From: Asticcacaulis excentricus
Lineage (GTDB): Bacteria > Pseudomonadota > Alphaproteobacteria > Caulobacterales > Caulobacteraceae
Reading direction: 5' to 3'
Assembly: GCF_003966695.1 (NCBI RefSeq)
Contig: NZ_AP018827.1
Location: 372,001 to 436,000, forward strand
DNA: 64,000 bases
Both the position numbers and the translations under genes were made by a program. Under the pieces are notes generated by a model that was not told the DNA's origin, searched no databases, and was given only the letters and a program-made list of their open reading frames with translations. Each line of letters begins with the position of its first letter. Position 1 is the stretch's first letter. Shown piece after piece: positions 41,264 to 43,194 of this stretch.

Positions 41264-42382
<1,119 letters not shown>

Positions 42383-42437
42383 TTAACCCCGGATCGTGGC
42401 GGCCCGCTTCTGTGGGCCGGTAAGAAAAGACAGGTTA

Positions 42438-42547
42438 GAATCCTGTGGGGTTAATAAAAAGTTACAACTTGACTCGCGGCGAATCGGGCGAGTCTCATTT
42501 GACTCAATTTTCTGGGGGTGAGTCTTTTGGGACTCAGTTTTGGATTC
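42438..42547. promoter_or_regulatory. cluster of eight GANTC (CcrM) sites upstream of ccrM
   Basis: GANTC occurs at 42438, 42471, 42481, 42490, 42501, 42520, 42531 and 42543, eight times in 110 bp. Random expectation for GANTC is about once per 256 bp. In Caulobacter two such sites in the ccrM leader allow methylation-dependent shut-off; this cluster would give a stronger version. The sites lie 59-168 bp upstream of the ccrM ATG. Confidence 0.85.
42449..42465 (-). promoter_or_regulatory. CtrA-like box in the ccrM promoter
   Basis: On the minus strand the sequence reads GTAA-N7-TTAACC, with the right half-site perfect and the left half one base off TTAA. CtrA binds TTAA-N7-TTAA and activates ccrM in Caulobacter, so the place and strand fit. 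It sits between GANTC sites 1 and 2. Confidence 0.5.
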
Positions 42548-42558
42548 GTTTTGTTCTC

Positions 42559-43194
42559 TCAGGCGTCCACAACGGCCGTTTCAGACGCGGCAGACAGAAC
42601 CGAGCGTACCGTGGCCCAACTCAGGCGATGGATGGGCGAGGGGCCGTGCAGGCGGATGGCGGCTATGTGGGCTTCGGCCTGATAGCCCTTGTGCGATTTG
42701 AAGCCATAGGCGGGATAGAGGGCATCCATCTCGATCATGATGCGGTCGCGCGCCGTCTTGGCGAGGATCGAAGCGGCCGCGATGGACAGGGATTTGTCGT
42801 CGCCCTTGACCACCGCCGTGGAAGATATGGCCAGCGGCGGGCAGCGATTGCCGTCGATCAGGGCATGGATGGGCTGCGGGCGGAGGGCTTCGACGGCTTG
42901 CGTCATGCCCATCATCGTCGCCTGAAGGATGTTGTGGCAGTCGATATCGGCGGCAGAAATCTCGATTACCGACCACGCCAGAGCGGCCGCCTTGATGTCT
43001 GGCTCCAGCGCGAAGCGCTGTTTTTCGCTGAGCTTTTTGGAGTCGGCTATGCCGGGTGGAATGCGCGCCGGATCAAGGATAACGGCGGCCACGCATAAGG
43101 GCCCGGCGCAGGGGCCGCGTCCGGCCTCATCGACCCCACAGACCAGACCGTCAAACTGAGACTCAAAAGTGAAATCGGGCATGGATGGCTCCAT
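42559..43194 (-). CDS. rnhB: ribonuclease HII
   Basis: The 211-aa protein has the RNase HII core: GVDEAGRGPCAGPL with the catalytic Asp-Glu pair, ISAADIDCHNILQATM, and LIDGNRCPP followed by KGDDKSLSIAAASILAKTARD. It removes ribonucleotides from DNA and RNA primers. The order rnhB-ccrM on one strand is conserved in Caulobacter. The stop is just upstream of the GANTC cluster, so ccrM most likely has its own promoter in the 179-bp gap. Confidence 0.95.
   Translation of the reverse strand: MEPSMPDFTFESQFDGLVCGVDEAGRGPCAGPLCVAAVILDPARIPPGIADSKKLSEKQRFALEPDIKAAALAWSVIEISAADIDCHNILQATMMGMTQAVEALRPQPIHALIDGNRCPPLAISSTAVVKGDDKSLSIAAASILAKTARDRIMIEMDALYPAYGFKSHKGYQAEAHIAAIRLHGPSPIHRLSWATVRSVLSAASETAVVDA

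Follow-up and report, generated by a model that had tools for sequence, protein, structure and literature searches.

In the Alphaproteobacteria, CcrM is the enzyme that sets the methylation clock of the cell cycle, and it accepts any base at the centre of its target sequence GANTC. The promoter of its gene is known from Caulobacter crescentus, where it is activated by CtrA and carries two GANTC near its start; Stephens is said to have reported in 1995 that the two sites at Caulobacter ccrM go with repression. The shut-off of ccrM has been argued mainly from Caulobacter, with its few sites. Asticcacaulis, the subject of this analysis, is a freshwater genus.

Several further systems offer points of comparison, each taken here from those passages of the papers that bear on ccrM or GANTC. 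In one of them, ccrM is described as "most probably" under methylation control (PMC3973325). A comparative scheme infers ccrM to be a core GcrA target across the Alphaproteobacteria, and this seems to have been lost in Brevundimonas and freshwater relatives (PMC7987155). The gcrA promoter region of Agrobacterium tumefaciens belongs to the same circuit and, like the promoter analysed here, has multiple GANTC, six in 250 bp; it is less active when methylated by CcrM, an effect also seen in Escherichia coli without alphaproteobacterial regulators, but the gene is a different one and the passages describe no CtrA box or palindrome (PMC11514494). As at ccrM, several CcrM sites lie upstream of the master regulator gene ctrA in Caulobacterales, up to six GANTC in 300 bp, although these are counts without spacing or alignment (PMC8116508). 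Clustered promoter GANTC are also found at the MucR-shielded P169, which has four; there a bound repressor keeps GANTC unmethylated, whereas shielding of this kind would be an improbable reading of the array described below (PMC5172544). A count of CcrM sites before cell-cycle genes published in 2010 draws, in the passages concerned, no conclusion on methylation control (PMC2877005). While inferred methylation control of ccrM is thus already in print, we found in the accessible open-access text, subscription papers and supplements aside, no description of the phased array at ccrM or of the fixed TTGAC-N14-GANTC geometry.

A Dense and Helically Phased GANTC Array Lies Upstream of ccrM

The window, by which we mean the whole 64,000-nt stretch of DNA analysed, contains ccrM, a GANTC adenine methyltransferase gene of 371 aa, at 41264..42379 on the minus strand, and upstream of it, in the same reading direction, an open reading frame at 42559..43194 (minus strand) that the first-pass annotation named rnhB. 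An exact count found GANTC starting at 42438, 42471, 42481, 42490, 42501, 42520, 42531, and 42543, exactly the eight coordinates given in that annotation, and all eight fall in the interval between the ccrM start and the rnhB stop, where it had placed them. The depletion of GANTC that it mentioned is real, as the window holds 105 copies against a shuffle mean of 259. For the density in the genome, we sampled 80 stretches of 20 kb that together with the window make up 1.664 Mb, or 44% of the 3.79-Mb genome, and found 2,649 GANTC, equal to 1.59 per kb. From this sample about 0.17 sites are expected per 110 bp, a lower figure than the 0.4 first proposed. A scan for the densest windows in the sampled 44% of the genome ranked the ccrM cluster first, with 8 sites in 110 bp compared with 4 in 110 bp for the runner-up, and a Poisson model expects approximately 4e-6 clusters of such density per genome. 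The observation of an eight-site cluster is thus confirmed, and no comparable GANTC cluster was present at gcrA of the same genome within its 3.5-kb locus.

The site-to-site spacings are 33, 10, 9, 11, 19, 11, and 12 bp, of which only the first was missing from the earlier list. The eight positions in the window show a 10.5-bp periodicity (R = 0.80; p = 0.0012 by simulation), and the helical spacing suggested in the first pass therefore holds for Asticcacaulis, to which we limit the claim; across the class, the signal comes mainly from short pairs. Phasing among the alphaproteobacterial ccrM regions described below was significant overall, but after removal of pairs of at most 14 bp the p values were 0.21 at 10.5 bp and 0.0175 at 11 bp, and we rejected it as a class-wide property. 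Pairs of GANTC at 11 bp are not a habit of this genome either: with the cluster removed, its sample holds 5 of them, where the average over spacings is 5.04. One 26-nt imperfect direct repeat, 77% identical, was also found. The pattern GAGTC-N6-GACTC is present twice only in the whole genome, both times within the ccrM cluster; the same pattern read backwards has five occurrences.

On the ccrM strand, a CtrA-like box of the form GTAA-N7-TTAA with one mismatch occupies 42465-42451, and the GATTC at 42442-42438 (site 7) begins 23 bp after the start of this box and abuts the hexamer TAACCT at 42437-42432. In the passage on Caulobacter ctrA P2, the CtrA box begins at -39 (PMC4287350), and the same placement here would make TAACCT the -10 hexamer and give a predicted ccrM transcription start near 42426, on which the assignment of the box to -39 to -25 depends. 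Site 7 (42438..42442) would then lie at about -16 to -12, adjoining the predicted -10. The seven remaining sites would fall between about -121 and -45, just ahead of the CtrA box and, by their spacing, roughly on one face of the helix. These are site 6 (42471..42475, about -49 to -45), site 5 (42481..42485, GATTC on the ccrM strand), sites 4b and 4 (42490..42505), which form a second GAGTC-N6-GACTC palindrome beside an 11-bp insertion, sites 3 and 2 (42520..42535), which form the core palindrome TGAGTC-N6-GACTCA, and site 1 (42543..42547, about -121 to -117) at the upstream end of the array.

Three features of the Caulobacter-type promoter are present at Asticcacaulis ccrM: the ccrM ortholog is the gene driven, a CtrA box matching TTAA-N7-TTAA, with one mismatch in the window, stands at a predicted -39, and a GANTC lies at fixed distance from it in the predicted -10 region. 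The two promoters share the CtrA box at the -35 position, the GANTC in the -10 region, and a presumed methylation-dependent turn-off, and they differ in the up to seven extra upstream GANTC and the core palindrome of Asticcacaulis.

The Array Is Conserved across Asticcacaulis and Stays with ccrM

We compared the ccrM upstream regions of 25 Asticcacaulis genomes, excluding L106, which had no anchor, and L107, the second fragment of the genome of L104. The ccrM protein has a single match in the genome of the window and is 84–100% identical in the other 24, two of them with the gene in pieces; among the best 80 of at least 561 protein matches, an Asticcacaulis sp. record is 99% identical and the next three are also from Asticcacaulis. 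One of the interrupted genes, that of L104 and L107 (G016), consists of two overlapping pieces covering residues 13–278 and 274–368, reflecting either a frameshift or an assembly error.

The array was found in all 25 genomes, with 4–8 sites within about 120 bp upstream of ccrM and largely in register, so that no related promoter without the cluster, the finding that the first-pass annotation had set against its reading, turned up within the genus. Site 3 (GACTC) and site 5 (GATTC) align without a change at any of their five bases in 25/25 genomes, and site 2 (GAGTC) is intact in 23, each exception being a change of one base. Site 1 is in register in 19 genomes and shifted by one base, still as GANTC, in three more (L094, L097, and L098), giving 22/25 in all; it is lacking in L095, L096, and L104. 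Site 4 is present in 18/25, site 6 in 19/25 (lacking in L094–L098 and L104), and site 7 in 22/25 (lost in L088, L091, and L097). Next to site 4, 4/25 genomes (L081, L082, L084, and L085) carry an insertion of 11 bp, one turn of the helix, which creates a second GAGTC-N6-GACTC in the window and in L085; site 4b is seen in three genomes (L081, L084, and L085), and sites 4b and 4 form the full GAGTC-N6-GACTC in two (L081 and L085). The core GAGTC-N6-GACTC itself is at ccrM in 23/25 genomes, against 8 copies elsewhere in all 25 combined.

The central base varies at sites 4, 6, and 7 with the GANTC frame kept, whereas at sites 1 and 2 it is constant wherever the site is present in register. The shift of site 1 to another GANTC and the variable centres of sites 4, 6, and 7 suggest selection on GANTC itself, and the pattern of conservation further suggests an additional constraint on sites 2, 3, and 5. 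As CcrM takes any base at the centre, it does not explain the invariant central bases. Together with the one-turn spacing, these constant bases suggest one or more further protein readers of the core palindrome in addition to CcrM.

A scan for the CtrA box with at most one mismatch was positive in 24/25 genomes, compared with a mean of 6.7% for letter shuffles, and in L094 the box was recognized by reading the alignment. A GANTC follows 23–24 bp past the start of the box in 22/25 genomes (with L094 read by eye). When the phasing was computed from sites beyond 205 nt upstream of the ADPPYN codons, R ranged from 0.41 to 0.89 among the 25 genomes; with all sites it ranged from 0.39 to 0.83, the genomes being related and not independent tests.

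Two local variations stand apart. The loop of the core palindrome (42525-42530 in the window and the same place in L081–L105) reads TTTTCG in six genomes; in L099, L101, and L103 it reads CGAAAA, the reverse complement, and looks flipped between the inverted arms. L094–L098 and L104 have, in place of site 6, GGTTAATTTAAC, which mostly takes the form of the palindrome GGTTAATTTAACC, overlaps the start of the CtrA box, and is perhaps an added CtrA site.

In 15/25 genomes rnhB ends no more than about 90 bp from the cluster, and in L092 the distance is about 200 bp. In the nine others rnhB is displaced or missing: in L082, L085, L086, L088, L100, and L101 it is about 650–920 bp off with a further frame of 90 codons or more in the gap, in L099 it is about 400 bp off with no such frame between among the three listed, in L102 it was not found by tblastn and ORF placement and another frame adjoins the cluster, and in L103 only a piece is found at the end of the fragment, again with another frame adjoining the cluster. 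In 9/9 of these the cluster still adjoins ccrM. The assignment to ccrM made in the first pass thus extends to 25/25 genomes, and as the linkage survives insertions beside rnhB, the cluster belongs to ccrM. In L082 and L085, about 20 bp separate the array from the start of a 281-codon frame that points away from ccrM, and, judged by this arrangement, the array may serve two promoters there.

GANTC Enrichment and a Fixed Promoter Geometry in Other Alphaproteobacteria

For a comparison within the family, we chose by hand, among the matches listed (249 genomes searched, 244 matching), 60 genomes from 12 other genera of Caulobacteraceae. Their densest 110 bp upstream of ccrM held 0 sites in 4 genomes, 1 in 18, 2 in 28, 3 in 6, and 4 in 4, and the comparison within the family thus has a divided outcome: the cluster is kept in all 25 Asticcacaulis, but the other genera have only 0–4 sites.

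The class set consisted of 40 ccrM upstream regions (L257–L296) from 39 families, hand-picked from the better-scoring part of 101 matches (142 searched), and distant CcrM are therefore underrepresented in it. Counts refer to 37 of the 40 regions, as L267, L278, and L284 lacked the ADPPYN anchor and were omitted; with a looser anchor, L267 and L278 show TTGAC with GANTC at +19, whereas L284 does not. We also analysed 58 loci that are related to one another and that we labelled Rhodobacterales-like (L023–L080); they belong to the 80 best matches among at least 561. The density of GANTC between -300 and -90 from the ADPPYN codons was compared with that elsewhere on the same fragments, which is mostly coding sequence. 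It was 18.8 per kb at ccrM vs. 2.5 elsewhere in the class (7.6-fold), 12.6 vs. 1.35 in the Rhodobacterales-like loci, 8.65 vs. 1.42 in the 60 other Caulobacteraceae, and 31.0 vs. 1.70 in the 25 Asticcacaulis, the highest of the four groups. Among the Rhodobacterales-like loci, at least three GANTC were found in 44/58 ccrM regions but in only 18/4,529 other 210-bp windows. Dense clusters occur in the class as well, with 7 sites in 110 bp in three of the 37 regions and 8 in one.

A more specific pattern, TTGAC with a GANTC 18–20 nt after its start, was present in 25/37 class genomes, with 12/37 lacking it, and in 47/58 Rhodobacterales-like loci. The background is low, with 19/3,186 TTGAC in the sample of the Asticcacaulis genome and 5/606 TTGAC elsewhere in the Rhodobacterales-like loci. 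When the 25 class promoters were aligned on TTGAC, 23 of them had A at +24 and 24 had T at +28, and an extra GANTC in the spacer, at +7 to +10, was counted 22 times. We read this layout, TTGAC-N14-GANTCA-N3-T, as a putative sigma70 promoter in which 17 bp separate the -35 from a -10 that reads CANNNT, and the first base of this -10 would be the last base of GANTC.

The TTGAC and GANTC layout was absent from the ccrM regions of Asticcacaulis (0/25) and of the other Caulobacteraceae (0/60), and the ccrM promoters of Asticcacaulis and of the class are for that reason not the same object. In Asticcacaulis, the CtrA box occupies the place of the class TTGAC. We also considered a divergent class-type promoter inside the array and did not adopt it; on the ccrM strand, 0/25 genomes have TTGAC at the class distance, and both strands were judged by eye. 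A pair of GANTC at 11 bp, on the other hand, is found at ccrM in 24/25 Asticcacaulis, 47/60 loci of L021–L080, 12/37 class genomes, and 4/60 other Caulobacteraceae.

Our data resemble the published GcrA scheme in that extended GANTC motifs are conserved ahead of ccrM in many orders, but in that scheme the regulation seems lost in Brevundimonas and freshwater relatives, where we find in Asticcacaulis the densest of four groups; its main text, as accessible, does not name Asticcacaulis, and its section on ccrM does not give the TTGAC-N14-GANTC geometry (PMC7987155).

A Proposed Methylation-Gated Feedback Model of ccrM Expression

With moderate confidence, we favour a model in which the ccrM promoter of Asticcacaulis would be a negative feedback gated by methylation, read at the promoter itself and joined to CtrA control, with the array sharpening or delaying the response; on the conservation described above, CcrM probably controls its own production through the array. 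Phosphorylated CtrA would start ccrM transcription late in S phase, after the replication fork has left the locus hemimethylated. According to sampled GC skew, and assuming a circular replicon, the gene sits at about three quarters of the origin-to-terminus distance, and at this place it would become hemimethylated late. CcrM would then remethylate its own promoter, and full methylation would directly lower activity at the -10 and spacer. The closest experimental precedent in the passages considered is the gcrA promoter region of Agrobacterium, with its lower activity under methylation (PMC11514494). The methylation would be read at the level of RNA polymerase or via CcrM occupancy, GcrA being accessory at most; in the passages seen, CcrM binds as a dimer and a bubble is opened at the bound GANTC (PMC6787082), which would make CcrM occupancy another direct route. 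The array would make the shut-off depend on several methylation events and draw CcrM to its own promoter, resulting in a later and sharper self-limiting pulse. Repression as the sign of the methylation effect is carried over, by analogy, from other promoters, and the -10 GANTC itself is not indispensable, as it is lost in 3/25 genomes.

A wider reading, which we offer tentatively and consider rather doubtful, would make this switch ancient in the Alphaproteobacteria: a GANTC over the sigma70 -10 would be read by RNA polymerase or CcrM without GcrA, Caulobacteraceae would have swapped the -35 for a CtrA box, and Asticcacaulis would have added the helically phased array that counts methylation events as a timer. 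With up to seven extra and precisely placed sites, Asticcacaulis offers a natural system for relating site number and helical phase to the sharpness and timing of a switch.

Alternative Readings of the Array

Among the alternatives, the one that survives best is a platform for GcrA, the protein that the first-pass annotation had put forward as an example of a methylation-sensing reader. GcrA would bind methylated GANTC, work via sigma70, and activate or repress ccrM according to methylation state. The genome has one gene with the PF07750 domain, and passages of published work report that GANTC methylation enhances GcrA binding (PMC3667746) and, from conserved motifs, infer ccrM as a core target in many orders (PMC7987155). 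The extended GcrA motif YGAKTCK, counted in one orientation, fits 65/171 array sites of the genus compared with 26.4% of 2,544 sampled genomic sites, but the excess is modest, the sites are not independent, and of the eight sites in the window three fit and five do not. The class set is less favourable to this alternative. By PF07750, 7/40 genomes lack GcrA (L259, L263, L272, L277, L283, L285, and L290); a search of these with the Asticcacaulis GcrA protein gave E values of 0.0017 or weaker in six and no match in the seventh, while two positive-control genomes gave 1.7e-40 and 3.3e-25. One of the seven assemblies is 84% complete and the others 90–100%, and a very divergent GcrA could escape such detection. 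The TTGAC and GANTC layout was present in 6/7 GcrA-less genomes (not L285) and in 19/30 GcrA-positive genomes, or 21/33 when the three omitted regions, read by eye, are included, and GANTCA-N3-T in 5/7 and 19/30, respectively. The genomes without detectable GcrA also have as many sites, with a mean of 4.71 compared with 3.77; the tested differences were not significant, and thus no class-wide link between the GANTC layout at ccrM and the presence of GcrA was found among 7 GcrA-less and 30 GcrA-positive genomes.

As six of the seven GcrA-less genomes keep the layout, GcrA seems not to be obligatory in the class, and the proposal that it reads the array is weakened by this and by the motif counts. 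GcrA may act at ccrM where it is present, but it is unlikely as an obligatory reader, and we regard the platform as a whole as unlikely too. With the class geometry kept without GcrA, direct methylation sensing by RNA polymerase or CcrM, as in the feedback model, becomes a testable alternative to the GcrA-centred view.

Less probable still, and in our judgment quite improbable, is that the array is shielded from methylation by a bound protein that is itself indifferent to methylation or blocked by it, such as a member of the MucR family or an unknown dimer on TGAGTC-N6-GACTCA; the GANTC would then be by-products of the binding sites of this protein. The constancy of all five bases of sites 3 and 5 in 25/25 genomes and of the centres of sites 1 and 2 in register would be expected of such a protein, the genome has three MucR-family genes, one per contig (C2:75019-75384, C1:947797-948159, and C3:217874-218212), and MucR is described, in the passages concerned, as shielding GANTC in Caulobacter and Sinorhizobium (PMC5172544). 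However, the one-base shift of site 1 in three genomes and the variable centres of sites 4, 6, and 7 point to selection on GANTC, and the 25 genomes together have just 8 copies of GAGTC-N6-GACTC away from ccrM, which would be unusual for a global regulator.

We give very little weight to a purely structural or titrating element, that is, a CcrM decoy, a cruciform, or a bent segment that works without methylation read-out. The palindrome at the core, whose loop is rich in A or T, the opposite orientations of that loop in six and three genomes, as from hairpin-mediated inversion, and the helical phasing would all suit a structural role, but the place directly upstream of the CtrA box suggests a role in the promoter, and eight sites against roughly 6,000 in the genome, by extrapolation, cannot titrate CcrM globally. 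Finally, although the 26-nt direct repeat could suggest local repeat expansion, we consider chance, or a by-product of such expansion or of the rnhB 3' end and its terminator, practically negligible, and we reject chance and an rnhB by-product on the density, the conservation in 25/25 genomes, and the independence from rnhB.

Outside Asticcacaulis, GAGTC-N6-GACTC was also seen in 3/16 genomes of the genus g22 (L152–L154), where it precedes the leader GANTC pair by about 75 bp.
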